Made by a program: the position numbers and the translations under genes
Shown here: piece after piece, positions 4,180 to 31,077 of the stretch
How the letters are laid out: every line of letters begins with the position of its first letter
How positions within the stretch are numbered: the first letter of the stretch is position 1
NCBI GenBank assembly: GCA_002007365.1
Contig: LNZR01000077.1
Location: forward strand, 20,331-84,330
Origin: Epulopiscium sp. Nele67-Bin005
Lineage (GTDB): Bacteria; Bacillota; Clostridia; Lachnospirales; Cellulosilyticaceae
Length of the DNA stretch: 64,000 nt
Reading direction: 5' to 3'
The notes under the pieces: model-generated
The model's database searches: none
What the model was told of the DNA's origin: nothing
The model's input: the letters and a program-made list of their open reading frames with translations, nothing else

Positions 4180-5553
4180 GTGTTTGAGGCTTGCCAAAAA
4201 AATGTAGATTTAACATTAGACACAAAAAAATTTTTTGAACAATACAACAGAAATAGACGCATTGCAACTTTTACTTTGGGGTGCAAAGTAAATCAATATG
4301 ATACAGAGGCTGTAGTTGAACAATTTACAAATGTTGGATATGAAGTTGTAAATTTTAATGAAAATGCTGATGTTTATATAGTAAATACGTGTACTGTTAC
4401 GCATCTAAGCGACAGAAAATGTAGGCAAATGTTGCGTAAAACAAAGCGAATGAATGAAAATAGTATTTTAGTAGCAATGGGGTGTTATGTTCAATCTGTG
4501 CAACAAAAAATTAAAGAAGAAGTACCAGAAGTTGATATCATAATAGGAACAAATGGTCGTAGTGAAACTTTAAATATGGTAAATAATTATTGTATTAACA
4601 AAACTTTTGACCCAATAGAAGATATTATGAATATTGAACTTTTTGAAGAATTAAAAATTTCACAAATTGATGGTCATACAAGAGCTTACCTTAAAATTCA
4701 AGAAGGTTGTAATAATTATTGTACTTATTGTATTATTCCTTATGTTAGAGGTAATATTAGAAGTAGACAGGAGCAAAATGTAATTGAAGAAGCAATTCGT
4801 CTTACTAATATTGGATTTAAAGAAATTATTTTAACGGGAATACATGTAGCATCTTATGGAAAAGATTTGAACCAAACTTCTTTAGAAACGTTACTTCCAA
4901 AACTTAATGATATAGAAAATTTGGAGAGAGTGAGATTAAGTTCTATTGAGCCAGTTGTAATAACTGAACAATTTTTAAATACTATTAATCAACTGCCAAA
5001 GATGTGTAAGCATTTTCATTTGTCGTTACAAAGTGGTTGTGACACTGTTTTAGAAAGAATGAACCGAAAATATACGACTGATGAATATTTTGCTAGTGTA
5101 CAAGCATTAAAAAATGTTTGGGAAGATGTGGCATTAACAACAGATATAATAGTAGGTTTTCCAAATGAAACTGAAGAAGAGTTTGAAGAAACTATGAAAT
5201 TTGTAGAAAAAGTTGGATTTTATCAAATTCACATTTTTCCATTTTCTCCAAGAGAGGGAACAAAAGCTAGTACTATGAGTGGTCAAGTTGAGCCGCAAAT
5301 CAAAGAAGAGCGTGCCAAACGATTAAAACAATTGTCACAAAAATTAACTGAGCAGTTTTTACAAAAGCAAATTGATAAAACTGTTACTATATTAGTTGAA
5401 AAACATGAAAATAATCGTATAATTGGGCATACTAGTAACTATATTAAAGTTAAGGCCACATTAAATACCTATGTTAGCTATGAAAATCAGTTAGTAAATG
5501 TAAAAATTATTACACAAGAAAATGGATTTTTAAATGGTATGGTAGTTAACTAA
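4180..5553 (+). CDS. mtaB: tRNA (N6-L-threonylcarbamoyladenosine(37)-C2)-methylthiotransferase MtaB
   Basis: TLGCKVNQYDTEAV, CNNYCTYCIIPYVRG radical SAM motif; GTG start. Confidence 0.93.
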   Translation: MFEACQKNVDLTLDTKKFFEQYNRNRRIATFTLGCKVNQYDTEAVVEQFTNVGYEVVNFNENADVYIVNTCTVTHLSDRKCRQMLRKTKRMNENSILVAMGCYVQSVQQKIKEEVPEVDIIIGTNGRSETLNMVNNYCINKTFDPIEDIMNIELFEELKISQIDGHTRAYLKIQEGCNNYCTYCIIPYVRGNIRSRQEQNVIEEAIRLTNIGFKEIILTGIHVASYGKDLNQTSLETLLPKLNDIENLERVRLSSIEPVVITEQFLNTINQLPKMCKHFHLSLQSGCDTVLERMNRKYTTDEYFASVQALKNVWEDVALTTDIIVGFPNETEEEFEETMKFVEKVGFYQIHIFPFSPREGTKASTMSGQVEPQIKEERAKRLKQLSQKLTEQFLQKQIDKTVTILVEKHENNRIIGHTSNYIKVKATLNTYVSYENQLVNVKIITQENGFLNGMVVN

Positions 5554-5580
5554 AATTATAAATTGAAAGGTGATGATTAG

Positions 5581-5835
5581 ATGAATAATATGAACGAGAC
5601 AATGCAATTTCAATTTAATTTATCTGAACCACAATCAACAAAGGAAGTTCTACTAGATGTGTATACAGCGTTGAATGATAAAGGGTATAATCCTATTAAT
5701 CAAATTGTAGGGTATATAATGTCGGGAGACCCTACCTATATTACTAGCCATAATGGGGCTAGAACTAAAATTAGAAAATTAGAACGTGATGAAATTTTAG
5801 AGGAATTGGTTGCATTTTATTTAAAACAATCGTAA
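5581..5835 (+). CDS. ireB: IreB family regulatory phosphoprotein (UPF0297)
   Basis: [35 protein letters not shown]; upstream of ruvX. Confidence 0.93.
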
Positions 5836-5892
5836 TTAACAGGCTGTAGAATACATCTGCAGCCTATTATATTAATTAGACTGGAGTATAAA

Positions 5893-6327
5893 TTGAGAAT
5901 TTTAGGATTGGATTATGGTACAAAGACTACAGGGGTTGCAGTTAGTGATCCGTTTGGGCTTACGGCTCAAGGTTTAGAAATTATAAGGCGTACAGATGAG
6001 TTTAATATTAAGCCTACAATTGCTCGCATTAAAGAACTTTGTGAAGAATATAAAGTTGAAAAAATCGTTTTAGGGTATCCAAAAAATATGGATAATTCTG
6101 AAGGTGAACGATGTGAGCAAACCAAAAAGTTTAAGCAAAAATTAGAAGGAAATCTTCGGTTGCCTGTTGAACTTTGGGACGAAAGACTCTCTACGGTATC
6201 GGCTGAAAATATGTTAATTAGTGCTGATATGAGTCGCCAAAAACGAAAAAAGGTTATTGATAAAGTAGCCTCTACAATTATTTTGCAAAATTACTTAGAT
6301 GCTAATCCAAATAAAACTAGTATCTAA
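5893..6327 (+). CDS. ruvX: Holliday junction resolvase RuvX (YqgF)
   Basis: MRILGLDYGTKTTGVAVSD, DERLSTVSAE; TTG start. Confidence 0.93.
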   Translation: MRILGLDYGTKTTGVAVSDPFGLTAQGLEIIRRTDEFNIKPTIARIKELCEEYKVEKIVLGYPKNMDNSEGERCEQTKKFKQKLEGNLRLPVELWDERLSTVSAENMLISADMSRQKRKKVIDKVASTIILQNYLDANPNKTSI

Positions 6328-6383
6328 TTAAAATACATTAGACTAAATTTAGTTTAAAATTACAAATTTAAAGGAGTGAATGC

Positions 6384-6635
6384 ATGGAAAAAATAACTTT
6401 TATTGATGATGAATTTAATGAAATCTTATTTGAAATTGTTGACCAAATAGAAATTGATGGTACAAAATATTTATTAGTGGAAGATGAAGATGAAGTGGCG
6501 ACTATTTTAAAGGAAGCTGAAGATGAGTCTAGCGATGAAATTTCGATTACTTATCAATTGATAGAAGACCAAAATGAGTTTCAAAAAGTAATGTTATCAT
6601 TTATGGAAAGTGATGAATATGATATAGAAATCTAA
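6384..6635 (+). CDS. DUF1292 family protein
   Basis: Acidic ~80 aa protein, characteristic position between ruvX and a fur-family gene. Confidence 0.75.
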   Translation: MEKITFIDDEFNEILFEIVDQIEIDGTKYLLVEDEDEVATILKEAEDESSDEISITYQLIEDQNEFQKVMLSFMESDEYDIEI

Positions 6636-6651
6636 TGAAATTCAATATCAA

Positions 6652-6680
6652 TTGACAAGGAAACATTTTTCTTATATAAT
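6652..6680 (+). promoter_or_regulatory. Sigma-A type promoter for Fur-family gene
   Basis: TTGACA - 17 nt - TATAAT. Confidence 0.8.
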
Positions 6681-6722
6681 AAATGTACCTAAGAAAAATT
6701 ATAATTAAGGAGCGAAATTAAA

Positions 6723-7151
6723 ATGAATACGGCATCATTTAAAGAACGATTAAAAGAAAAAGGTTGTAAATTGACCACTCAAAGACGTGCAGTATTAGAC
6801 ATTCTAATTAGTCACCAAGGCAAACATTTATCTATAGAGGAAATTTATTCTTTTGTTAAAGAAGAGTATCCTGAAATTGGTTTAGCTACTGTTTATCGTA
6901 CGGTACAATTATTTGAGGAAATGAAATTAGTAGATAGGTTAAATTTTGATGATGGGTGTAATAGATTTGAACTTAGTTCACCTGATGAGGTACACCAACA
7001 CCATCATTTAATTTGTCAAAAGTGCAATAAAATTTTAGAAGTTGAAGATGATTTATTGACAGAAATAGAAGAAGGAATTCAGACAAAATATAACTTCCAA
7101 ATCAATAACCATAATGTAATATTTTATGGATTTTGTGAGGAGTGCAAATAA
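6723..7151 (+). CDS. Fur-family transcriptional regulator
   Basis: TTQRRAVLDIL, LATVYRTVQLFEE, HQHHHLICQKCNKILEVE, FYGFCEEC. Confidence 0.92.
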   Translation: MNTASFKERLKEKGCKLTTQRRAVLDILISHQGKHLSIEEIYSFVKEEYPEIGLATVYRTVQLFEEMKLVDRLNFDDGCNRFELSSPDEVHQHHHLICQKCNKILEVEDDLLTEIEEGIQTKYNFQINNHNVIFYGFCEECK

Positions 7152-7168
7152 AATAAGGAGGTGTACTT

Positions 7169-8839
7169 TTGGTACCTAAAAAACCAAAAAGTAAGTTACG
7201 CATTATTCCATTAGGAGGACTTGGAGAAATTGGAAAAAACATGACTGTATTTGAGTATGAAAACGACTTAATTATAGTAGACTGTGGTCTAGCTTTTCCA
7301 ACTGATGAGATGTTAGGGATAGATTTAGTAATTCCCGATATAACTTATTTACTAAAAAATGCAGAAAAAATTAAAGGTGTTGTGTTAACTCATGGTCATG
7401 AAGATCATATTGGAGGTTTACCATACTTTTTACAAGAAATTAACGTACCAATTTATGGTACAAGACTTACAATCGGATTAGTTGAAAACAAACTTCGTGA
7501 GCATAATTTACTAAAAACTACGACTCGCCATAATGTTTCACAAGGAGATACAATTAAACTTGGAAATAGTTTTAAAGTAGAGTTTATAACTTCAAATCAT
7601 AGTATTGCAGATGCTGTAATATTATCAATTTGGACTCCAGCTGGGACAGTTGTGCATACAGGAGATTTTAAAATTGATTATACCCCAGTTAAAGGAGAAG
7701 TCTTAAATTTACATCGTTTAGCTGAGCTTGGTAAAAAAGGCGTATTAGCTCTAATGGCTGATAGTACTAATGTTGAGCGTGCTGGATATACTCAATCAGA
7801 ACGAACTGTTGGACAAACTTTAGAAGATGTATTTAATAAATCAAAAGATAAAAGAATTATGGTTGCGACTTTTGCATCAAACGTAGATAGGGTTCAGCAA
7901 ATCATAACAGCGGCACACAATACAAAGCGAAAAGTAGCAGTAATTGGGCGTAGTATGGTAAATGTTGTAAAAACTGCAAGTGAACTTGGCTATCTTGATA
8001 TTCCAAAAAATACTTTGATTGATATTAATGATATTCGTCGTTATAATGATGATCAAGTTGTTTTAATCATGACGGGAAGTCAAGGAGAACCAATGGCTGC
8101 ACTATCTCGTATGGCTAAATCGGAGCATAAACAAATTGAAATTAAACCTGGAGATGTAGTTATTTTGAGCGCAACACCAATTCCAGGAAATGAAAAAACA
8201 GTATCAAATGTAATTAATGAGCTTGCTAGAAAAGGAGCAATTGTAGTTAAAGAAGATACACACGTTTCTGGTCATGCTGCTCAAGAAGAATTAAAACTTA
8301 TCCATGCTTTAGTTAGAGCTAAATATTTTGTTCCAGTTCATGGGGAATATCGTCATCTTCAAAAGCACGCTGAACTCGCAGTTGCAATGGGTACACCAAA
8401 AGCTAATATTCCAGTTATGGCTATTGGAGATGTTTTGGAAATCAACAAAAATTCTTGCAAAATTGTAGGAACTGTTCCTTCTGGACAAGTGTTAGTTGAT
8501 GGGCTAGGCGTTGGAGATGTTGGAAATATTGTACTTCGAGATAGAAAACATTTATCTCAAGATGGACTATTAATTGCAGTAATGACATTAGAGCGTGAGT
8601 CGGGTTGTGTAGTTGCAGGCCCTGATATTATTTCCAGAGGTTTCGTTTATGTAAGAGAAGCTGAAAACTTAATGGACGAAGCTAAAAACGTTGTAAAAAA
8701 AGCGCTGGAAAGATGTGAAACTCAAGGAATTATTGAGTGGACTCAAATTAAAACTATCGTAAAAGATGATTTACGTGATTTTGTTTGGCACAAAACAAAA
8801 CGTAGCCCAATGGTTCTTCCTATTATTATGGAAGTTTAA
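7169..8839 (+). CDS. rnj: Ribonuclease J
   Basis: IIPLGGLGEIGKNMTVFEY, LTHGHEDHIGGLPYF, HTGDFKID, VHGEYRHL. Confidence 0.95.
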   Translation: MVPKKPKSKLRIIPLGGLGEIGKNMTVFEYENDLIIVDCGLAFPTDEMLGIDLVIPDITYLLKNAEKIKGVVLTHGHEDHIGGLPYFLQEINVPIYGTRLTIGLVENKLREHNLLKTTTRHNVSQGDTIKLGNSFKVEFITSNHSIADAVILSIWTPAGTVVHTGDFKIDYTPVKGEVLNLHRLAELGKKGVLALMADSTNVERAGYTQSERTVGQTLEDVFNKSKDKRIMVATFASNVDRVQQIITAAHNTKRKVAVIGRSMVNVVKTASELGYLDIPKNTLIDINDIRRYNDDQVVLIMTGSQGEPMAALSRMAKSEHKQIEIKPGDVVILSATPIPGNEKTVSNVINELARKGAIVVKEDTHVSGHAAQEELKLIHALVRAKYFVPVHGEYRHLQKHAELAVAMGTPKANIPVMAIGDVLEINKNSCKIVGTVPSGQVLVDGLGVGDVGNIVLRDRKHLSQDGLLIAVMTLERESGCVVAGPDIISRGFVYVREAENLMDEAKNVVKKALERCETQGIIEWTQIKTIVKDDLRDFVWHKTKRSPMVLPIIMEV

Positions 8840-8919
8840 TTGGAAATTTACACCATTAAATTTTGATTGTAGAAGTAAAATACTAAAATAAAATTGAATT
8901 TTGTGGGGAGGATTAACTT

Positions 8920-9396
8920 ATGGAAAAAGATTTTAATTTTGTAAATATGAATGCCACCAAAAATATTGCACTCGTAGCTCATGATAATTGTAAAAAAGAT
9001 TTAATTGAATGGTCAATTGAAAATAAGCGAAAACTTAGCAAACATCATCTTTTTGGAACAGGAACAACGGCTACCTTAATTGCAAAAGCTACCCAACTTC
9101 CCGTAAAGGCTTATAATAGTGGGCCTCTTGGAGGTGACCAGCAAATTGGGTCTCGAATTGTTGAAGGTGAGATTGATTTTATAATTTTTTTCTGGGACCC
9201 CCTAGAAGCTCAGCCTCATGATCCAGATGTAAAAGCTTTATTAAGAGTAGCAGTTTTATATGATATTCCGATTGCCAGCAACCAATCCACAGCAGATTTT
9301 TTATTAACTTCACCATTTATGGAAACTTCATATAATCGTAAAGTTATTGATTACGCTAAAAGAATTGATAAACGAACACAAAATTTTAGTAAATAA
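8920..9396 (+). CDS. mgsA: Methylglyoxal synthase
   Basis: NIALVAHDNCKKDLIEW, GTGTTATLI, SGPLGGDQQIGSRI, FFWDPLEAQPHDPDVKALLR. Confidence 0.96.
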   Translation: MEKDFNFVNMNATKNIALVAHDNCKKDLIEWSIENKRKLSKHHLFGTGTTATLIAKATQLPVKAYNSGPLGGDQQIGSRIVEGEIDFIIFFWDPLEAQPHDPDVKALLRVAVLYDIPIASNQSTADFLLTSPFMETSYNRKVIDYAKRIDKRTQNFSK

Positions 9397-9402
9397 AAAA
9401 GA

Positions 9403-9438
9403 TACCTCAAGATATTATTTCTTGGGGTATTTTTTTGT
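9403..9438 (+). terminator. Intrinsic terminator
   Basis: atacctcaaga..tcttggggtattttttt. Confidence 0.75.
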
Positions 9439-9472
9439 GCAAAATTTAAAAAAACCTATTATTCGTGAAAAT

Positions 9473-9501
9473 TTGACAAATATTTCTCTTTGTGATATAG
9501 T
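9473..9501 (+). promoter_or_regulatory. Promoter for PAS histidine kinase
   Basis: TTGACA - 17 nt - TATAGT. Confidence 0.7.
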
Positions 9502-9546
9502 ATAGATTGAAAAAACTATATACAAAAATTATAAGGAGAATATTAA

Positions 9547-11523
9547 ATGGAAAATATTGTTAATAATTCGATTGATAATATCTGTATAGTTAATCTAAAA
9601 GGTGAAATTATTTTTGTAAATAAACAACTTATTCAAACTCTAAATATGCAAGTTGGAGACATGATTGAGGATTATTTCAAGAGTACCTTAAATTTAAAAT
9701 TGTTAAATAAGGAACAAGAGCAGTTTGTGAAGTTAGAAACTAATCAAATTTGTCCTAGTAAAATTTATATACATGAAGTTGCATGGTATAATATGCCTGC
9801 ACTTTGGATAATAATTAGACTGGAGGCTGATATCTCTCTTTTAGAACATAACTTAACGATATGTAAACAAAATAAAATTTTACAAAAAAATAACCATCAA
9901 GATTTACTAAAACATTTATTTTTTGTGCAAAAAGAAATTATCGCTTCTATCCAGTCTGTAATAAACAAGTATAGCGATGAAATTTTAATAGAAGTTGTAT
10001 CTTTTGATAAATCTAATTTATCTATAAAAGTTGAATTTATTATTACAAAAACTTTTCAAAATGTGAGTAGTTTGCGTAGCATAGAAATTCAACAAGAAGA
10101 ATTTGAAAGTTACACTAGTATTACAGAAAATGTAAAAATTAATATTTCGGAAAATATTAACACATCTTCAGTAACTAGTGCTTTTTTCGACCAAGGATAT
10201 AACTACGTTACATATTATCCGATATTTAATAACGCAAAGTTGATAGGAAAATTTGGGATACAATTTCAGAATGAGGTTGCCAAAATATCTGACCAAGATT
10301 TAAAGTTTATTAAAACTCAAACAGCTAATTTATTGTATACACGTCAAGCGTTAAATTTATATCAAAATGAGTTAATTGATGACTATCATTATATTTCAAA
10401 TTTAAATTATTTACAGACTTGCTTAGAAATTTGTACAGATTTTATTGGAGTTTTTAATAAAGACGGAATATTTTTGAGTGTAAGCAAAGAAGTTACACAA
10501 ATTTTGGGGTGGGAACCAGAGGATTTAATTGGTAAAAGTTGGCAGGACTTTGCTTGTCCAGAAGATATTATTGATACTAAGCTACAAGAATATATTGGAG
10601 TTAATTCTAATTATAATAGATGTATCGTAACTTCAAGATTTGCTCATAAAAATGGCGAATATCGCTGGATACAATGGCAATTTAAACCGTTTGAAGACCC
10701 TGATATTTCTGCTATTATAGCCGAGGATATCACTGCTCAAATGGAATTTAAAACTGCACAATTACAAGAACTTGAGTTGCAAAAAATTAATACATTAAGA
10801 CAAGATTTTTTTAATATTGCATCTCATGAGTTGCGCACGCCATTAACTGTAATTATGTCAACTCATAAACTTTTAGAAGATTATATAGATGAGCATCACC
10901 TAGAAAAATTGCGAAAACATACTAATCGTCTTAGTAGATTAGTTAACAATTTAATTACTATGACTGAGTTAGAAACTGGGCTTAATATTTTGGAATATTC
11001 ACCATGCAACATAGTTGTACTAATAGGTCAAATTATAGAGGTGATTAATAAAATTTATTTTTCAAAAAATATTAGTATAGTACTTTCATCTACTTTGACA
11101 AATCCATTATTTATGTGCGATGTATATTATTTCCAAAAGATAATATTGAATATTCTGTCTAATGCAATAAAGCATAGTAATGATGAAGGGAAAATTTTAG
11201 TAGAGTTAAGTCTTGAAAAAAACTTTATTAATATATCAATAACTAATTTTGGAGAAGCGATACCTCTTGAAATACAGGAGTTTATATTTGAGTCGTTTTC
11301 TCAAGTAGACCCTATTTTGACTAGGCATAATGAAGGAATGGGGATAGGATTATCGTTATGTTATACCTTAATTAAAATGCATAAAGGGCATATTTATCTT
11401 TGTAGTAATGAGGAAAAAACTTGTTTTACAATTAATTTACCAGTTGGACAATTGAGTGATGAACCAGCAATTTCTAGCATAGATTTAGAAGAGGAAATAA
11501 AGCTTGAGCTATCTGGAATTTAA
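9547..11523 (+). CDS. PAS-domain sensor histidine kinase
   Basis: PAS segment (FIGVFNKDGIFLSVSKEVTQILGWEPEDLIGKSWQDF), HisKA FFNIASHELRTPLT, HATPase N-box NILSNAIKHS and GMGIGLSLC. Confidence 0.92.
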   Translation: MENIVNNSIDNICIVNLKGEIIFVNKQLIQTLNMQVGDMIEDYFKSTLNLKLLNKEQEQFVKLETNQICPSKIYIHEVAWYNMPALWIIIRLEADISLLEHNLTICKQNKILQKNNHQDLLKHLFFVQKEIIASIQSVINKYSDEILIEVVSFDKSNLSIKVEFIITKTFQNVSSLRSIEIQQEEFESYTSITENVKINISENINTSSVTSAFFDQGYNYVTYYPIFNNAKLIGKFGIQFQNEVAKISDQDLKFIKTQTANLLYTRQALNLYQNELIDDYHYISNLNYLQTCLEICTDFIGVFNKDGIFLSVSKEVTQILGWEPEDLIGKSWQDFACPEDIIDTKLQEYIGVNSNYNRCIVTSRFAHKNGEYRWIQWQFKPFEDPDISAIIAEDITAQMEFKTAQLQELELQKINTLRQDFFNIASHELRTPLTVIMSTHKLLEDYIDEHHLEKLRKHTNRLSRLVNNLITMTELETGLNILEYSPCNIVVLIGQIIEVINKIYFSKNISIVLSSTLTNPLFMCDVYYFQKIILNILSNAIKHSNDEGKILVELSLEKNFINISITNFGEAIPLEIQEFIFESFSQVDPILTRHNEGMGIGLSLCYTLIKMHKGHIYLCSNEEKTCFTINLPVGQLSDEPAISSIDLEEEIKLELSGI

Positions 11524-11659
11524 TATACATATTTGTTAAAATATAGACAAAAAATGATAAAATTCTTTCCTTATGAATGTTGCTGTTCATAATAACTTAA
11601 CAAATGAGGTCTGTTGACAAAAATTCACAAATTAGATTAAAAGTTTCAAATATTATAGA

Positions 11660-11688
11660 TTGACACTTTAAAAAAACCGTGCTACTAT
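11660..11688 (+). promoter_or_regulatory. Promoter of pyrF-carAB operon
   Basis: TTGACA (11660-11665) - 17 nt - TACTAT (11683-11688). Confidence 0.75.
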
Positions 11689-11830
11689 AGTTTGAAGAAA
11701 TTACTTTTTAAGTTAAAGTAATAAGGAGTACGGTTTATTTTTGTACAACTTTACAATAATTTAGTCAAATTCATCTAAATTTACAAAAAAATTTTGGCTA
11801 AATTGTATCTTAATAATAGTTTCGCAAATT

Positions 11831-11962
11831 TTGCCTTTAATTGTAGTTTTATGGCTACACTAAAAAACCACATAACGATAAATAATCGTATTGCTCAATT
11901 TGAGCGTATATGTTTTGGGCTTAAAGGCAATAGAGGAGATTTTTCCTTTATTGCTATTTTTT
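11831..11962 (+). promoter_or_regulatory. Transcription attenuator (antiterminator/terminator switch) upstream of pyrF
   Basis: TTGCCTTTAA (11831-11840) pairs perfectly with TTAAAGGCAA (11921-11930); the latter overlaps terminator stem GCAATAGAGGA/TCCTTTATTGC (11927-11954) followed by TATTTTTT. Confidence 0.7.
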
Positions 11963-11993
11963 ATATAATTAAGTAAGAGAGCGAGGAAAAATT

Positions 11994-12905
11994 GTGATTG
12001 ATAAATTAATAAAAAGCATAGAACTAAAGCAAAATCCAACCGTTGTAGGTCTTGATCCTACATATGAAATTATACCGAGCTTTATAAAAAACGAAATGTT
12101 AGAAACTTATGGGAAGACTCCTAAGGCTGTGGCAGAAATGTTTCTAAAATTTAATAAAGAAATTATTGATGAAACTTTTGAGTTAGTTCCTGCAGTAAAG
12201 CCACAAGTTGCAATGTATGAAAAGTATGGACTTGAGGGAATTCGTGCTTATATTGAAACTTGTGAGTATGCAAAAGAAAAAGGGCTTTTGGTAATTGGTG
12301 ACATCAAAAGAGGAGATATTGCGTCAACTGCTGCTGCTTATGCAAGTCATATTGAAGGGACACATATCGAAGGGGAATTTTTTGATTTATGGAATGAAGA
12401 CGCTGTAACAATTAATCCGTATATGGGTTATGATGGGATAGAGCCTTTTTTAAATGCGTGCAAAAATATGAACAAGGGTATATTTGTTTTGGTGAAAACG
12501 AGTAATCCAAGTAGTTCAGAAATTCAAGATTTAACGGTTGATGGTACTCCAATTTATAAAATTAGTGCAAGCTTAGTTAATAAATGGGGTGAAAGTTCTA
12601 TTGGTAATTGTGGTTATAGTAATGTGGGGGCAGTTGTTGGGGCTACTCATAAAGCTATAGGTACAGAGCTTCGTGCTTATATGCCAAACACATTTTTCCT
12701 AGTTCCTGGATATGGAGCGCAAGGTGGTACAGGCAAAGACTTGGTTAATTATTTTGATAAAAATGGTGGAGGAGCTATCATTAATTCTTCGAGGGGAATT
12801 ATTGGGGCATACCAAAAGGATTTGTCAAATGAGAAAGATTTTGCAAAAGCTTCTAGGCAAGCAGTAATTGAAATGCGTGATGACTTACAAAAAGGGGGGA
12901 ATTAG
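11994..12905 (+). CDS. pyrF: Orotidine 5'-phosphate decarboxylase
   Basis: VGLDPTYEIIPSF, VIGDIKRGDIASTAAAYA, VPGYGAQGG. Confidence 0.95.
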   Translation: MIDKLIKSIELKQNPTVVGLDPTYEIIPSFIKNEMLETYGKTPKAVAEMFLKFNKEIIDETFELVPAVKPQVAMYEKYGLEGIRAYIETCEYAKEKGLLVIGDIKRGDIASTAAAYASHIEGTHIEGEFFDLWNEDAVTINPYMGYDGIEPFLNACKNMNKGIFVLVKTSNPSSSEIQDLTVDGTPIYKISASLVNKWGESSIGNCGYSNVGAVVGATHKAIGTELRAYMPNTFFLVPGYGAQGGTGKDLVNYFDKNGGGAIINSSRGIIGAYQKDLSNEKDFAKASRQAVIEMRDDLQKGGN

Positions 12906-13985
12906 ATGAAGGCACAATTAATTTTAGAAAATGGTATGGTATTTGAAGGTAGAGCCTTTGGATATCTAAAAGAAGCAATTGGTGAAGTTGTTTTTAACAC
13001 TGGTATGACAGGATATCAGGAGATTTTAACAGACCCTTCTTATTACGGACAGATGGTTGTTATGACGTATCCGTTAGTTGGAAATTATGGAATAAATTTA
13101 GATGATATGGAGTCTTACAAAGCTCATGTTAAAGGTTTTATCGTACGTGAGAAATGTGATTATCCAAACAATTTTAGATGTGAGTTAACTTTAGATGGGT
13201 ATTTAAAAGCACAAAAAATTATTGGTTTAGAAGGCATTGATACTCGTTCCCTAACAAAGGTTATTCGTGACCACGGAACTATGAGAGGGATTATTTCGGT
13301 GCGTGAGCTTACTCCTAGTCAAATTAAATTAAAAATTGATAGTTTTGTAAATCAACACGCTGTTTCTGAAGTTACTACTAAAGAAATTTATGAGATTGAA
13401 GGAGATGAACTTCATATTGCGATGGTAGATTTTGGAGTAAAGCAAAATATTATCCGTGAATTCAAAAAGCGTAACTGCAAAATTACTGTATTTCCAGCAT
13501 TTAGTACATCTGAAGAAATTTTGAATGTAAATCCTGATGCTGTATTTTTATCAAATGGGCCAGCTGACCCAAAAGATTTGCCATCAGTTATTGAAAATAT
13601 TAAAAAAATGGTAGGTGTTAAGCCCATTACAGGAATTTGTTTAGGGCATCAATTGTTATGCCTTGCATTAGGTGGAAACACTGGAAAACTGAAGTTTGGA
13701 CACCACGGAAGTAATCACCCTGTAAAAGATTTAATTAGTAATAGAGTTTATATAACATCACAAAATCACAATTATCACGCAGAAACTCTACCTCAAGGAG
13801 CAGTTGTAACTCATAGACATTTAAATGACCAAACAATCGCAGGAATGTATGCCAAAGATTTAAATATTTACAGCGTTCAGTTTCACCCTGAAGCTTGCCC
13901 AGGGCCAACGGATACAGAACATATTTTTGATGAGATGATAAATGTAATGTATGGGAAGGAGTTAGAAGTATGCCAAGAGATTTAA
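12906..13985 (+). CDS. carA: Carbamoyl phosphate synthase small subunit
   Basis: [51 protein letters not shown]. Confidence 0.96.
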
Positions 13986-25056: not shown

Positions 25057-25068
25057 TGTAAAATTTTA

Positions 25069-25358
25069 AAACCCAGATTTCAAAAATCGTGAAGATAGTA
25101 CATTTTTGTCTTCTCTTTTAAAGTAACCTCTCATAAGAAACCAAAAATCATATTAGAAATAGTTAATCCCAAAACCTAAATTTCAAAAATCATGAAGATA
25201 GTACATTTCTGTCTTCTCTTTTAAAAGTAACTTCTCATAAGAAACTAAAAATCATATTAGAAATAGTTAATCCCAAAACCTAAATTTCAAAAATCGTGAA
25301 GATAGTACATTTTTGTCCTCTCTTTTAAAAGTAACTTCCCATAAGAAACCAAAAAATC
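25069..25358. repeat. Three tandem copies of a ~103-104 bp intergenic repeat (third copy partial)
   Basis: AAAACCYARATTTCAAAAATCRTGAAGATAGTACATTTYTGTCYTCTCTTTTAAAAGTAAC... with the core at 25078, 25181 and 25285. Confidence 0.9.
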
Positions 25359-25463: not shown

Positions 25464-25492
25464 TTGACATGTAAATAAATATATGATATTAT
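25464..25492 (+). promoter_or_regulatory. Promoter of RiPP precursor genes
   Basis: TTGACA - 17 nt - TATTAT. Confidence 0.75.
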
Positions 25493-25588
25493 GCAAATGT
25501 ATTAAATTTTATGTATATAAATTAATATATATTTATATACTTAAGATTAAATAATTGTAAAAATAATTATGGAAGGGAGAATATACTT

Positions 25589-25717
25589 ATGGAACTAATG
25601 GAAAATAATGTATTAGAGAATACAGAGGTTATACTTAAATCTTTAGATTTATCTGATTTTGAAGATATGGAAGAAATTGTTACTCCAGGATTTTTTGGTG
25701 TAATTATTTGTTGTTAA
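25589..25717 (+). CDS. RiPP precursor peptide 1 (MELMENNVLENTEVILKSLDLSDFEDMEEIVTPGFFGVIICC)
   Basis: 42 aa ORF with RBS (ggaaggga), acidic leader and hydrophobic CC-ending core; tandem near-identical copy follows; upstream of M50 + rSAM + ABC genes. Confidence 0.88.
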   Translation: MELMENNVLENTEVILKSLDLSDFEDMEEIVTPGFFGVIICC

Positions 25718-25780
25718 TATAAATTTGTATGCTTAAGATTAAATTATGGTAAAAATAATTAGGGGAGGGAGAATATACTT

Positions 25781-25912
25781 ATGGAACTAATGGAAAATAA
25801 TGTATTAGAGAATACAGAAGTTACACTTAAATCTTTAGATTTATCTGATTTTGAAGATATGGAAGAAATTGTTACTCCAGGATTTTTTGGTTTAATTGGT
25901 TGTTGTAAGTAA
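25781..25912 (+). CDS. RiPP precursor peptide 2 (MELMENNVLENTEVTLKSLDLSDFEDMEEIVTPGFFGLIGCCK)
   Basis: 43 aa ORF with RBS (ggggaggga); leader differs from copy 1 at one residue, core at its C-terminal end. Confidence 0.88.
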   Translation: MELMENNVLENTEVTLKSLDLSDFEDMEEIVTPGFFGLIGCCK

Positions 25913-26100
25913 TTACGGGAATAACTAATTACTTAATATAATTATATTTAATTATATTGGAATACATTAAAATAAAATAGGGGAAATTGTTAATAATTTT
26001 CTCTATTTTATTGTATTACGATAATATTATTTTTGTAACTTAATATTAATAGACATAGGAGTAGAAACGTGTATAAAGTATACATTTTTAAATAATAAAG

Positions 26101-27231
26101 ATGAATAAAAATTACGTACCAAAATTGGTTAAAGATGTTAAGTTGTATACATTTAATTCAATTATAACTAAAGAACCCCTATATTATTTGGGTTCAAAAT
26201 CCTTAGATAGGACAATAAAAATAAGTAAAAATAAGAAGGATTTAGTGGAAATATTATTAAATAATATTAATGGTATAAGTACTGTTAAGGAAATTCAAAA
26301 AAAAATGGATTTATCAGATATTACGATTAATGTAGAAGATATCCTAAAAATCTTTGCTAATCAAGGATTTTTAGAAGGTGGAAATATGATTTATAATTCT
26401 GAAATTGATTTAACTAGTAAAACAATGTTTGAAGTTAATATATCCTATGATGTCAAAAAAATTCAAAAAATCAGTAAAATTATAGGAATAATTTTACTAA
26501 TTTTTTTAGTAGGCGCTATTAAGGTTATATTAAGTCAATCTCATTTATTTAGAGAAGAGAACTTATTAGATAATTTTTATATTTATCAAACACTTCCATG
26601 TTTACTGATGGTAATATTAGTTCATGAATTTAGTCATATATTATTTGCAACTCTATTCAATGTTCCAGTAAAAAAAGTTAAAGGTGCATTAATATGGGGA
26701 ATAATTCCTGTTATATTTATAAAGTATAAAAATCTTTATTTTATTTCTCCTTTTAAAAGATTACTTATTATATTAGGAGGTGTTATTGGAAATTTTATAG
26801 TTAGTTTGTACTGTTTAGGAATATATTTTTATAGTAGACACTCTATATTGTTAAATCTATTTTATCTTAATTTAGGTTATATATTTACTAATTTATATCC
26901 TCATAAAGCAAGTGATGGTTATTTTGCTTTATGCACATTATTTAATAAGCATAATATAAGAATTTCAGTAATAAAATCTATTTTTACTTCCAGAAGAAAT
27001 TTAAAATCTAATATATTATTAGTAATTTATTTTGGATTAATAATTTTTGCAACTGTAGGGTTAGGAATAGTATTAAGTGATTTTATTATACTCATATTTG
27101 GTCAATATATTAAAGATTACTCAAATTATGTTAAAGGAATTATATATTTAGGACTAGTACTTCAATTAATAATTAGGTTTATTAATTTAACACGTTTATA
27201 TAAGAAAGGAATTACAAATGAGAAATTATAG
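26101..27231 (+). CDS. M50-family membrane metallopeptidase with N-terminal PqqD-like (RRE-like) segment, RiPP maturation
   Basis: HEFSH zinc motif within TM region and ASDG second motif; N-terminal KDLVEILLNNINGISTVKEIQKKMDLSDITINVEDILKIFANQGFL resembles a PqqD winged helix. Confidence 0.85.
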   Translation: MNKNYVPKLVKDVKLYTFNSIITKEPLYYLGSKSLDRTIKISKNKKDLVEILLNNINGISTVKEIQKKMDLSDITINVEDILKIFANQGFLEGGNMIYNSEIDLTSKTMFEVNISYDVKKIQKISKIIGIILLIFLVGAIKVILSQSHLFREENLLDNFYIYQTLPCLLMVILVHEFSHILFATLFNVPVKKVKGALIWGIIPVIFIKYKNLYFISPFKRLLIILGGVIGNFIVSLYCLGIYFYSRHSILLNLFYLNLGYIFTNLYPHKASDGYFALCTLFNKHNIRISVIKSIFTSRRNLKSNILLVIYFGLIIFATVGLGIVLSDFIILIFGQYIKDYSNYVKGIIYLGLVLQLIIRFINLTRLYKKGITNEKL

Positions 27232-28492
27232 ATTTCATGAAATTAAATGTAATGATAAAAATATTATATTTGATAGAGATACTTCACAAATATATGTGGG
27301 AACATTAAAAGAAAATAATTGGAAAATTTCAGAAAAAGAAAATGGTGATAAAATAAATCAATCAAAATTTTTATTAAATCCAGAATATAATACATTAATT
27401 ATTTCTTGTGCAGAAACTTGTAATTTAAGTTGTAAGTATTGTTTTGCTAATGAAGGTACTTATAATTCATCAAAAAATCTTATCATGAATGATAAAATGT
27501 ATGGTCAATTACTGGATAAACTTTTGGTGAAAAATGAACCTTTAAAATCTATTTCTTTATTTGGTGGAGAACCTTTATTAGGATTTAAATATATTAAAAA
27601 TTTTATTAAAAAGTTACAAGAAGGTTATCTTGCCAAAGATTGGCCTCTACCTCTCATAGGTATTGTTACCAATGGAACACTAATCACAAAAGAAATAGGG
27701 GATTTTTTTCAGGAATATAATATTGCTGTTACAATTAGTTTAGATGGCTCAAAAGAATTTAATGATTTAAATAGAAAATATCCAAATTCAACCAAAAGTG
27801 TTTATGATAAGATAGTATCTAACATATCTAATATAAGGAATAGAACATTTCCTTTAGTTGCAGCCGCTACTATTTCTACTGATATTATAAAACAATATCA
27901 AAAAGGTGATTATAAAAAATATTTAGAGCATTATCAGTCCCTAGGATTTGATTACGTAGAACACTTTATTGCTGATAGTCCTATTCCTCTTACCACTGAG
28001 GAAATAACAAAAATTGAATTGTATGCAATAGATAAAGTAGAGGTAGTATTTGATAATTTAGTAAATAATAATTTATATGTACCTTATGGAGTAATAGGTG
28101 TTTTATCAACTATTGTACAAAAAAAATATAGTCCAGAATGTGGAGCAGGACTTACTCAAATGTTTTATTCAGCAGAAAATGAATTCTATCCTTGTCAAAC
28201 ATATTATGCAGTAAAAGAAAAGCATAGAAATACTTTATATAGAACAGAAATTATAAATTGTCAAGAATGTTTTTGTGTAAATATTTGTTGTGCATATTGT
28301 TCAGGCAGTAGTCTTCTATTCAATGGAAATGAATCATCAGTAATAGAAAGACGATGTGTATATCAAAAAGCTTTAACAGAGGCAATTATAAAAAATCTTT
28401 ATATTTATACTAACGACAAAGATTATCGTATAAAGATAGTCAAAAATTTAAAAAAATTAGCTAATACTAATTTTAATAGAATAGCCAGATAG
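27218..28492 (+). CDS. Radical SAM/SPASM peptide maturase
   Basis: CAETCNLSCKYCFANEG (CxxxCxxC), LFGGEPLLG, SLDG; C-terminal Cys cluster CQECFCVNICCAYCSG...RRC. Confidence 0.93.
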   Translation: MRNYRFHEIKCNDKNIIFDRDTSQIYVGTLKENNWKISEKENGDKINQSKFLLNPEYNTLIISCAETCNLSCKYCFANEGTYNSSKNLIMNDKMYGQLLDKLLVKNEPLKSISLFGGEPLLGFKYIKNFIKKLQEGYLAKDWPLPLIGIVTNGTLITKEIGDFFQEYNIAVTISLDGSKEFNDLNRKYPNSTKSVYDKIVSNISNIRNRTFPLVAAATISTDIIKQYQKGDYKKYLEHYQSLGFDYVEHFIADSPIPLTTEEITKIELYAIDKVEVVFDNLVNNNLYVPYGVIGVLSTIVQKKYSPECGAGLTQMFYSAENEFYPCQTYYAVKEKHRNTLYRTEIINCQECFCVNICCAYCSGSSLLFNGNESSVIERRCVYQKALTEAIIKNLYIYTNDKDYRIKIVKNLKKLANTNFNRIAR

Positions 28493-28501
28493 GAGAAAAA
28501 A

Positions 28502-30331
28502 ATGTTTTTTCAAAAATTACTGTATAAAAATTCTGTTTATACTAAAATAGCAATTTTGACGGTTTTAATGATAAATACTATTTTTATATCATTTTTTATG
28601 ATGGTAATAACAGGAATAGATAACATTACTAACGATACTTTAGACCAATCAAAAACTATTATAACCTATCTATCTTCTTTAGTTTTTCCATGTTCATTAG
28701 CAGTATTTTTCTTTCAGTGGATAATTTTTATGTTATATGGCGAGATGATTGAAGCCAGAAATGATTTTAATAGCATTCTAAGAAAAATGGGAGTTTCCAT
28801 AAAGAATATTTATAAAATATATTGGACAGAGTTTGTAGTTTTACAAATAGTTGCTCAACCAATAGCTATAATAGGAGCATTTAATTTTTATAACGTAATG
28901 ATGCAATATTATGGATATGACTCAACAATGGAAGGAACAGGAGTAATTTTAGGGATTACATCTACACTGGTTACTTCTTTAATTACATTAAGAATGGTAT
29001 TGAATAAAAATATAGTTACATTTGATAATGTAGGTCACGCTACAAAAAGTAAAGTAACAAAATTTGCATTTATTAGCAACCATACAAAACAAATAAAATT
29101 AATATCAGCCATTATTTTATTTGGGAGTAGCATATATAATTTAATGAATAATAATGTGGATATATTTTTGTTGTTTACGGTAATAAATATTCTGATTTTT
29201 TGGGGTGAAATCCTAGAGAATATTATTAGCAGTGTATGTAAAATATTACCCGATAAATTTAATATTACATTATTAATTTTAAAAGGATTTTCCCGAAAAA
29301 TAAGGGTTATTTCTTATACTATGATACTTGGATTAACATTAGTATTAGGACTTAATGCATTTATTCAAACAACAAGAAATCATGCGTATAATAGTGTAAT
29401 GGAAAACATTAATTATAATTATGTAATAACACACGAACTTTTAACTAATAAAGAAATAGATAATATATTTAACACTAAACATATATCAGCATTATCATTT
29501 AGAGAAAATGAAAATAAAATAGGTTCTAGCACTTTGACAATGTTGGGCGTTGAAAAAAACTATTTTCAAGAGTATGAAAATATAGAATTAATGTATGGAG
29601 ATCAAGATTTCATATTTGAAAATTGGGATAATCCAGAATATAACGGAATTATTCTGTGTGAGCATTTAATTAATGAAGATAACATCGGACAATCTATAGA
29701 ATTAACTGTTGATGGTAAATTGGTAAGTTTTGAGATTGTAGGAGGAAGTTCTGTTAATGATTTCTCAAAAATGTCTGGTTATGTAAGTAAGGGATTTATA
29801 CAACAAATTTTAAACCAAGGAGATGTTTCTAATATAACTTTCTTAAAAGAATATAACAATTCTCTGGAGAATAATTATACTGTAGAAACTAAACAAGAAA
29901 TTGCAAATAAAAGTTATACTAAAGCAGTTCAAGGAACATTTATATTAGAAATTACAGCTATCATTGTATTATTATCATCATTTTTTATGTTAGCAAATTT
30001 TATAATTATTACAGCTAAAAAGAGTAATGTAGATATAGCTAGAATGCGTGCCATGGGAATGCCAGGGCATAATATTAATTCCATATATATTTTAACTTAT
30101 ATGTTAATAATTATTGCTTCTGTACCACTTGCTGCCCTGTCAGCTTATGTTGGTGGTAAAAATTTTATGGTATTAATGTTAGGTCTACCCAATATAAAGT
30201 TGGATTTTAATTGGGCATTATTTGGTGGATATATATTAGCATATTTGGTGTTTTTGGTTATGGTATATTATACTTTGGCACAAAAGACTATAAAAGAATA
30301 TATATACGTTTTAAAATCTAAGTCTATATAA
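28502..30331 (+). CDS. ABC transporter permease (FtsX/MacB-like)
   Basis: 609 aa, TM segments at both ends, duplicated FtsX-like architecture (ARMRAMGMPGHNINSIY). Confidence 0.85.
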   Translation: MFFQKLLYKNSVYTKIAILTVLMINTIFISFFMMVITGIDNITNDTLDQSKTIITYLSSLVFPCSLAVFFFQWIIFMLYGEMIEARNDFNSILRKMGVSIKNIYKIYWTEFVVLQIVAQPIAIIGAFNFYNVMMQYYGYDSTMEGTGVILGITSTLVTSLITLRMVLNKNIVTFDNVGHATKSKVTKFAFISNHTKQIKLISAIILFGSSIYNLMNNNVDIFLLFTVINILIFWGEILENIISSVCKILPDKFNITLLILKGFSRKIRVISYTMILGLTLVLGLNAFIQTTRNHAYNSVMENINYNYVITHELLTNKEIDNIFNTKHISALSFRENENKIGSSTLTMLGVEKNYFQEYENIELMYGDQDFIFENWDNPEYNGIILCEHLINEDNIGQSIELTVDGKLVSFEIVGGSSVNDFSKMSGYVSKGFIQQILNQGDVSNITFLKEYNNSLENNYTVETKQEIANKSYTKAVQGTFILEITAIIVLLSSFFMLANFIIITAKKSNVDIARMRAMGMPGHNINSIYILTYMLIIIASVPLAALSAYVGGKNFMVLMLGLPNIKLDFNWALFGGYILAYLVFLVMVYYTLAQKTIKEYIYVLKSKSI

Positions 30332-30351
30332 TAAAAAAGGATAGGGAAACT

Positions 30352-31029
30352 ATGATTAAAATAAGTAATTTAAATTTTTCTGTACAAGATGGACAGGCAA
30401 AAAGAAGAATATTAAATAATGTAAACTTTGTAGCAGATAGAGGTACAGCAACTGTTATAAGTGGGGTTTCAGGCTCAGGAAAGACAACGTTTTTGCACGC
30501 ATTAAGTGGAATGTTGCCAGAAATTGATAGTGGTGATATAGTGATGGGAGATGTAGATTTATACAAAATTGCACCAGATAAAAGAGATGAATTTAGGTTG
30601 CATCATATGGGAATTATATTTCAAAACTTTAATTTATTTTCTTATATGAATGTGATGGATAATATTTTATTACCGTTTTATGCACAAGGCACTAAGCCTC
30701 AAAGTTCGGATATTAATAAGGCGTTAGATATGTTAAATTTGCTACAATTAACTCATATTAATCATCAAAAATCGATAGAATTATTATCTGGGGGTGAGCA
30801 ACAAAGAGTGGCAATAATTAGAGCCTTGATTACTAATCCAGAAATAATTGTTTGTGATGAACCAACAGCAAATTTGGATCAAAGTAATAGCCATATTTTT
30901 TATGAGAATATTTCTAAGCTTGCAAGTTCTGAAAATATTGCAGTAATTATTGTATCTCATGACCCTATAGCACATCAATATTGTCATTTTTCTTGCAAAA
31001 TGGTTGATGGAGAGTTAGAAATTTTATAA
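30352..31029 (+). CDS. ABC transporter ATP-binding protein
   Basis: Walker A GVSGSGKTT, signature LSGGEQQRVAI, Walker B IIVCDEPTANLD. Confidence 0.97.
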   Translation: MIKISNLNFSVQDGQAKRRILNNVNFVADRGTATVISGVSGSGKTTFLHALSGMLPEIDSGDIVMGDVDLYKIAPDKRDEFRLHHMGIIFQNFNLFSYMNVMDNILLPFYAQGTKPQSSDINKALDMLNLLQLTHINHQKSIELLSGGEQQRVAIIRALITNPEIIVCDEPTANLDQSNSHIFYENISKLASSENIAVIIVSHDPIAHQYCHFSCKMVDGELEIL

Positions 31030-31043
31030 AAAATCATATTTAG

Positions 31044-31077
31044 ACTATAGACGATTGTTTATAGTCTTTTTTTGATG
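31044..31077 (+). terminator. Terminator of RiPP cluster
   Basis: gactatagacgattgtttatagtctttttttg. Confidence 0.75.

Follow-up and report, generated by a model that had tools for sequence, protein, structure and literature searches.

A probable RiPP operon of a small undescribed family in Epulopiscium, pairing a daptide-type leader/protease module with a SPASM maturase

We analysed a 64,000-nucleotide stretch of the Epulopiscium sp. Nele67-Bin005 genome (contig LNZR01000077.1; hereafter the window), in which a first-pass annotation had read positions 25464-31077 as a compact cluster for a ribosomally synthesised and post-translationally modified peptide (RiPP), with a radical S-adenosylmethionine enzyme (rSAM) and two unannotated tandem precursors. 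All parts of the cluster lie on the plus strand. Both precursor open reading frames (ORFs) are indeed present: precursor 1 has 42 aa (25589..25717; MELMENNVLENTEVILKSLDLSDFEDMEEIVTP followed by GFFGVIICC) and precursor 2 has 43 aa (25781..25912; ...EEIVTP followed by GFFGLIGCCK), the cut site being predicted in both cases. Each is preceded by a GGGAG-type ribosome site, and the strong promoter proposed earlier corresponds to a putative TTGACA-17-TATTAT element with an extended -10 at 25464..25492, which agrees with the consensus at 11 of 12 positions. The two genes constitute a 192-bp tandem duplication of 94% identity in which five codons differ: 13 (silent), 15 (I/T), 38 (V/L), 40 (I/G) and 43 (stop/K). 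As annotated, the leaders are identical save for residue 15 and lack a GG cleavage site; the FFG and CC parts are unchanged between the copies. A CC or CCK ending is found in 3 of the 451 small ORFs (25-70 aa) of the window, two of which are precursors 1 and 2, and this ending of the tandem pair is more than chance. Neither peptide has a Pfam or NCBIfam match and the single PHROG match is insignificant, in agreement with the first-pass annotation, which did not recognise the core as a named class. An AT-rich stem-loop (25972..26014, approximate ends; RNA fold of 25910-26110, z -3.7 versus shuffles) marks the boundary between the precursors and the biosynthetic genes, 5' of the M50 gene, and probably either terminates transcription in part or stabilises the mRNA.

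Four partner genes follow, and their initial assignments are upheld by Pfam and NCBIfam. The first (26101..27231; Pfam M50) encodes an M50 intramembrane metalloprotease fused to a predicted N-terminal winged-helix domain (approximately residues 13-90) that resembles a RiPP precursor recognition element (RRE); its HEFSH (175-179) and SDGY (271-274) motifs are both intact, and the fusion protein is predicted to be the leader peptidase. The second (27218..28492; Pfam, NCBIfam) encodes a radical SAM/SPASM maturase with the CX3CX2C motif (CNLSCKYC, 68-75) and the seven SPASM cysteines (308, 326, 348, 351, 357, 361 and 380) of SPASM RiPP maturases, and all ten of these Fe-S cysteines (3 cluster and 7 SPASM) are invariant in 7/7 aligned sequences. 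An FtsX-like ABC permease of 609 aa (28502..30331; Pfam FtsX) and its exporter partner, an ABC ATPase of the LolD/MacB type (30352..31029; Pfam/NCBIfam), complete the set. Judged from sequence, we consider it probable that this is the RiPP operon of a small undescribed family, in which a daptide-type leader/protease module is combined with a SPASM maturase. The gene set, the intact catalytic motifs and the linkage of a conserved precursor family with the rSAM and M50 genes can all be read from the sequence itself, and they bear out the earlier description of a compact radical-SAM RiPP cluster.

Among relatives, the best rSAM match is in Cellulosilyticum ruminicola JCM 14822 (G016), which belongs to the same taxonomic family as the window's genome. 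Its locus holds all four partner genes, with identities to the window proteins of 32% for the rSAM, 28-30% for the M50 protein (which has the same two-part build), 26% over 552 aa for the FtsX permease and 49% for the ABC ATPase, of which 150 aa are present and compared. Three small ORFs accompany them, with the C-terminal sequences EEVVTPGWGTVGCC, EEVVTPASGTALCC and EEVVTPAAGTALCC and the shared pattern EEVVTP(G/A)xGxxxCC. A precursor profile made from the five peptides (two from the window, three from C. ruminicola) was run over 390 Clostridia genomes, and an M50 profile made from two proteins was run separately over the same genomes. With the window's genome excluded and the peptide profile taken at E up to 0.01, each profile hit 5 genomes, 4 of them in common (hypergeometric 2.7e-8); in these four, the peptide and M50 matches lie within one locus that contains an rSAM gene as well. 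In G379, the remaining M50-profile genome, precursors ending TPACGGGCGAGC or TPACGGGCGGGC adjoin the rSAM gene, and a wider order-level M50 search added G541 with precursor, rSAM, M50, FtsX and ATPase genes. A genome-contig search with the two-sequence M50 profile returned C. ruminicola only, and a plasmid search with rSAM and M50 queries yielded no family member (M50 unmatched, rSAM matches below 29% identity).

Across the precursors of the window and seven other genomes, E28 and G37 are invariant and P33 and C42 nearly so; the M50 proteins of the precursor family have both the HExxH and the DGY motif. A conserved leader and Cys-containing core thus occur beside homologous rSAM and M50 genes in 8 genomes including the window's, a recurrence on which the first-pass annotation had made its proposal depend, and the precursor family is almost certainly real and not a singleton. 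Phylogenetically, the window's rSAM groups with those of C. ruminicola and G541 (support 98/95), and this group is nested in a larger one with all same-precursor members and some rSAMs from other loci. The C. ruminicola rSAM frame extends approximately 70 codons 5' of its first ATG (L033, 10201-10420), and since this extension has no usual start codon, the start of that protein is uncertain. A second C. ruminicola rSAM (L034, 5123-7210) falls in the same tree group; no M50 gene adjoins it, and three paralogous small ORFs with GG-type leaders, such as ILLEDTREIIGG, are found there.

Several loci found along the way were set aside. L069, L118 and L122 were retrieved with M50: L069 is daptide-type, and L118 and L122 seem similar to it by gene content. 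L116, L117, L119, L120, L121, L123 and L124 lack the precursor motif of the window family. L069 (6016-9043) lies in G379, the Clostridia genome that also carries an rSAM/M50 cluster, and scores 434/450 bits for the aminotransferase and 255/300 for the M50 protein, with two precursors just below the daptide_123 cutoff. L119 (G057, 4233-13346) encodes an rSAM, an M50 protein, an ATPase, an FtsX permease and three small ORFs of another type, e.g. ELEGRKEMATKVSTNACAANVTASACG, and possibly represents a further rSAM-M50 peptide family. L121, from a more distant member of the phylum (G687, 5068-12696), has two rSAMs, M50, ATPase and FtsX genes and, ahead of them, a 49-aa ORF ending MACINLCCWNCCFQI.

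For the protease and leader, sequence comparison favours the daptide RRE-M50 module over the yydFGHIJ layout to which the first-pass annotation had likened the cluster. In daptides, an RRE is fused N-terminally to a site-2 protease, leaders end ELExMEAP with Pro at -1, and the leader is removed by an RRE-dependent intramembrane peptidase (PMC10036551). Similarly to the daptide protease MpaP, the window M50 protein bears a predicted N-terminal RRE-like domain, the acidic leader ends in ...P, several near-identical short precursors share one cluster, and ABC genes are present. Leaders of the window family end (D/E)(M/L)EE(I/V)VTP, with VP, CP or CA replacing TP in some. Because this motif resembles the end of daptide leaders, we moderately favour cleavage after TP; taken together with the RRE-like domain of the protease, the core is therefore probably GFFGVIICC or GFFGLIGCCK, and does not begin at TP as first annotated. 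The alignments of relatives' M50 proteins extend furthest with the model of the daptide RRE-protease, several of them beginning no later than position 40 of the model (in G379 over profile positions 11-298, E 1.7e-19). The predicted order of the window's N-terminal domain, b-b-b-a-a-a (AlphaFold, two-sequence alignment, pLDDT, the predicted local distance difference test, about 60-76), is the b3a3 winged-helix topology of RREs (PMC8326336). Its profile matches winged helices (3nqo, E 7.5e-5; TrmB, E 1.6e-5) with no direct PqqD/RRE match.

The cluster also departs from daptides. Positions 25464-31077 hold no decarboxylase, aminotransferase or methyltransferase gene and have a radical SAM/SPASM gene instead. 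The window cores end in CC or CCK, whereas daptides end in an invariant Thr, and the family as a whole ends in CC, CCK, CS, CN, GL, GC or similar. Model scores are far under cutoff: the window M50 protein reaches 27.8 bits against daptide_HExxH (NF041824; cutoff 300), and those of the family 33-84 bits, several of the alignments extending into the N-terminal part.

A number of observations weigh against this reading of the operon. Pairwise identity among the relatives is low, at 20-32%. The window M50 protein covers the daptide model via residues 127-300 only, and YydH/LiaK matches it slightly better. The AlphaFold models, built from two-sequence alignments, are weak (mean pLDDT 55 and 49), and a fold search with them gave nothing usable; because of this, the RRE call rests on the b3a3 order and the winged-helix matches. 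The rSAM's own N-terminal RRE seems shortened in the window, which blurs the question of which protein presents the leader. Finally, the cluster contains no dedicated immunity or regulator gene.

What the maturase does to the core is less clear-cut, and cross-linking of Cys in some form is the outcome towards which we lean. The nearest solved structures are CteB-type (5wgg/5why; E 7e-60 for 5wgg) and the closest curated model is PapB (123.5 bits, cutoff 340); the SCIFF model scores 96 bits (cutoff 425), and all NCBIfam matches are below cutoff. A true sactipeptide or ranthipeptide, in which the rSAM would form a thioether from Cys to an alpha- (or beta/gamma-) carbon as AlbA, CteB and PapB do, is a possibility that we rate somewhat short of even: the two nearest maturases, CteB and PapB, are both thioether-forming, Cys are the conserved core residues, and an rSAM core with seven-Cys SPASM and Cys as the likely reactant is common to these systems (SCIFF/CteB, PapB; AlbA, GggB) and to ours. 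However, in hairpin sactipeptides (PMC8326336) and streptosactin (PMC8172795) the donor Cys comes before the acceptor, as it does in the Cys-Xn-Asp/Glu products of PapB (PMC9413430), whereas precursor 1 and most relatives terminate at the last Cys, and such a thioether must run backwards. The predicted window cores are of 9-10 residues, with two Cys at the very end, no downstream acceptor and no Asp or Glu, and thus have neither the Cys-Xn-Asp/Glu nor the six-Cys pattern of ranthipeptides; the RRE-M50 protease is a further difference from ranthipeptides and sactipeptides. With most cores ending in Cys and lacking an acidic residue, either a backward link or some different chemistry is to be expected. 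We tentatively entertain a new RiPP class in which the SPASM enzyme would close a very small ring from the C-terminal vicinal Cys back to an upstream core residue, opposite to the sactionine/ranthionine polarity of the papers cited, with a daptide-type leader, RRE-M50 release and lipidated relatives.

Epimerisation is improbable in our estimation. Here the rSAM would epimerise core Val, Ile or Phe and the M50 protease would free a membrane-active D-amino-acid peptide, as in the epipeptide systems yydFGHIJ/epeXEPAB. The kinds of genes (precursor, M50, rSAM, ABC) are shared, so that the first-pass comparison holds to this extent, the VII/LIG core is hydrophobic, and the window M50 protein matches the YydH/LiaK family (38.9 bits, E 7e-10, against a cutoff of 225). 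That model (246 aa), however, aligns to residues 97-285 only, the YydG structures are remote from the rSAM (E 3e-6 versus 7e-60 for CteB), which is closer to CteB/PapB, and NCBIfam groups the enzyme with SPASM peptide maturases, all below cutoff. As the first-pass annotation had already noted, precursor and SPASM enzyme differ from the epipeptide ones, the precursors being unrelated; the RRE-like domain on the protease and the FtsX permease are further differences. More improbable still is action of the rSAM on the C-terminal residue, by mycofactocin-like oxidative decarboxylation, or a pearlin-like use of the peptide as a scaffold for a small Cys-derived product. The M50 proteins TglG and TmoG do release single modified residues from carrier peptides (PMC10885120), and daptides, with the same RRE-M50 module, have their C-terminal residue modified (PMC10036551), but here the last residue varies (C, K, S, N, L) and the cluster has no peptide aminoacyl-tRNA ligase gene. 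A separate question concerns role and not chemistry: that the modified core is a signal or metal-binding peptide instead of an antibacterial one seems to us doubtful. Its small size, its vicinal thiols and the adjoining mntP-type gene speak for such a role, and it speaks against it that the cluster encodes no regulator, receptor or importer; when relatives were examined for an empty site, the mntP and penicillin-binding protein genes that flank the window's cluster were not adjacent there, and their adjacency therefore says little.

Genes for a ketosynthase, ketoreductase, acyl carrier protein or adenylation enzyme are also part of the G451, G541 and C. ruminicola loci, and G451, G422 and G379 have a BtrH-type acyltransferase domain; the C. 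ruminicola acyltransferase candidate has a weak DUF4872 match only. In relatives the peptide may therefore occur in acylated form, which to that extent resembles lipo-RiPPs such as lipolanthines, selidamides and goadvionins. Our family differs in its rSAM maturase, and the window's cluster in having no fatty-acid/polyketide-type genes and no BtrH-type acyltransferase. Because BtrH_N has no match in the window's genome, the window product is probably not acylated by the BtrH route, although this absence is not certain given that the assembly is about 89% complete.

At 24.8%, the G+C content of the cluster is below that of the window (31%) and of the penicillin-binding protein gene next to it (38%), which is compatible with horizontal gain and no proof of it. 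Just 5' of the precursor promoter (25068-25355) stand three tandem units of approximately 104 nt each; they belong to an interspersed repeat with 42 matches genome-wide, and another tandem array lies at contig C45:6747-6962. PADLOC assigned no specific defence family and gave generic viperin and ATPase matches only.

From this gene content we infer the following course, including the way the leader is bound and cut, the type of cross-link, export of the product and its role as an antibacterial or a signal. The two near-identical precursors, probably in excess over the enzymes, would be bound through their acidic amphipathic leader (LDLSDFEDMEEIVTP) by the RRE-like domain. The rSAM/SPASM enzyme would presumably act first, with the leader still attached, oxidatively altering the 9-10-residue core, most likely by joining one or both C-terminal Cys to a core residue further upstream. 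Next, the M50 protease with its RRE-like domain would cleave behind TP at the membrane and so release the GFFGVIICC- and GFFGLIGCCK-derived products; the FtsX permease and its ATPase would export these and perhaps also protect the producer. Our literature search, which covered few subscription papers and not the 2022 radical-SAM RiPP atlas, gave no description of this precursor, nor of an RRE-M50 protease paired with an rSAM.

Two modules described apart so far, the daptide RRE-M50 unit and a SPASM maturase, would here be joined in one cluster, a sign that protease and tailoring modules may be exchanged among RiPPs. Of the gene sets that we found, that of the window's cluster is the smallest, consisting of precursor, protease, maturase and exporter, and its chemistry is therefore testable with two genes. 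A backward Cys link, if true, would be a bond topology without description in the literature cited here on sactipeptides and PapB.

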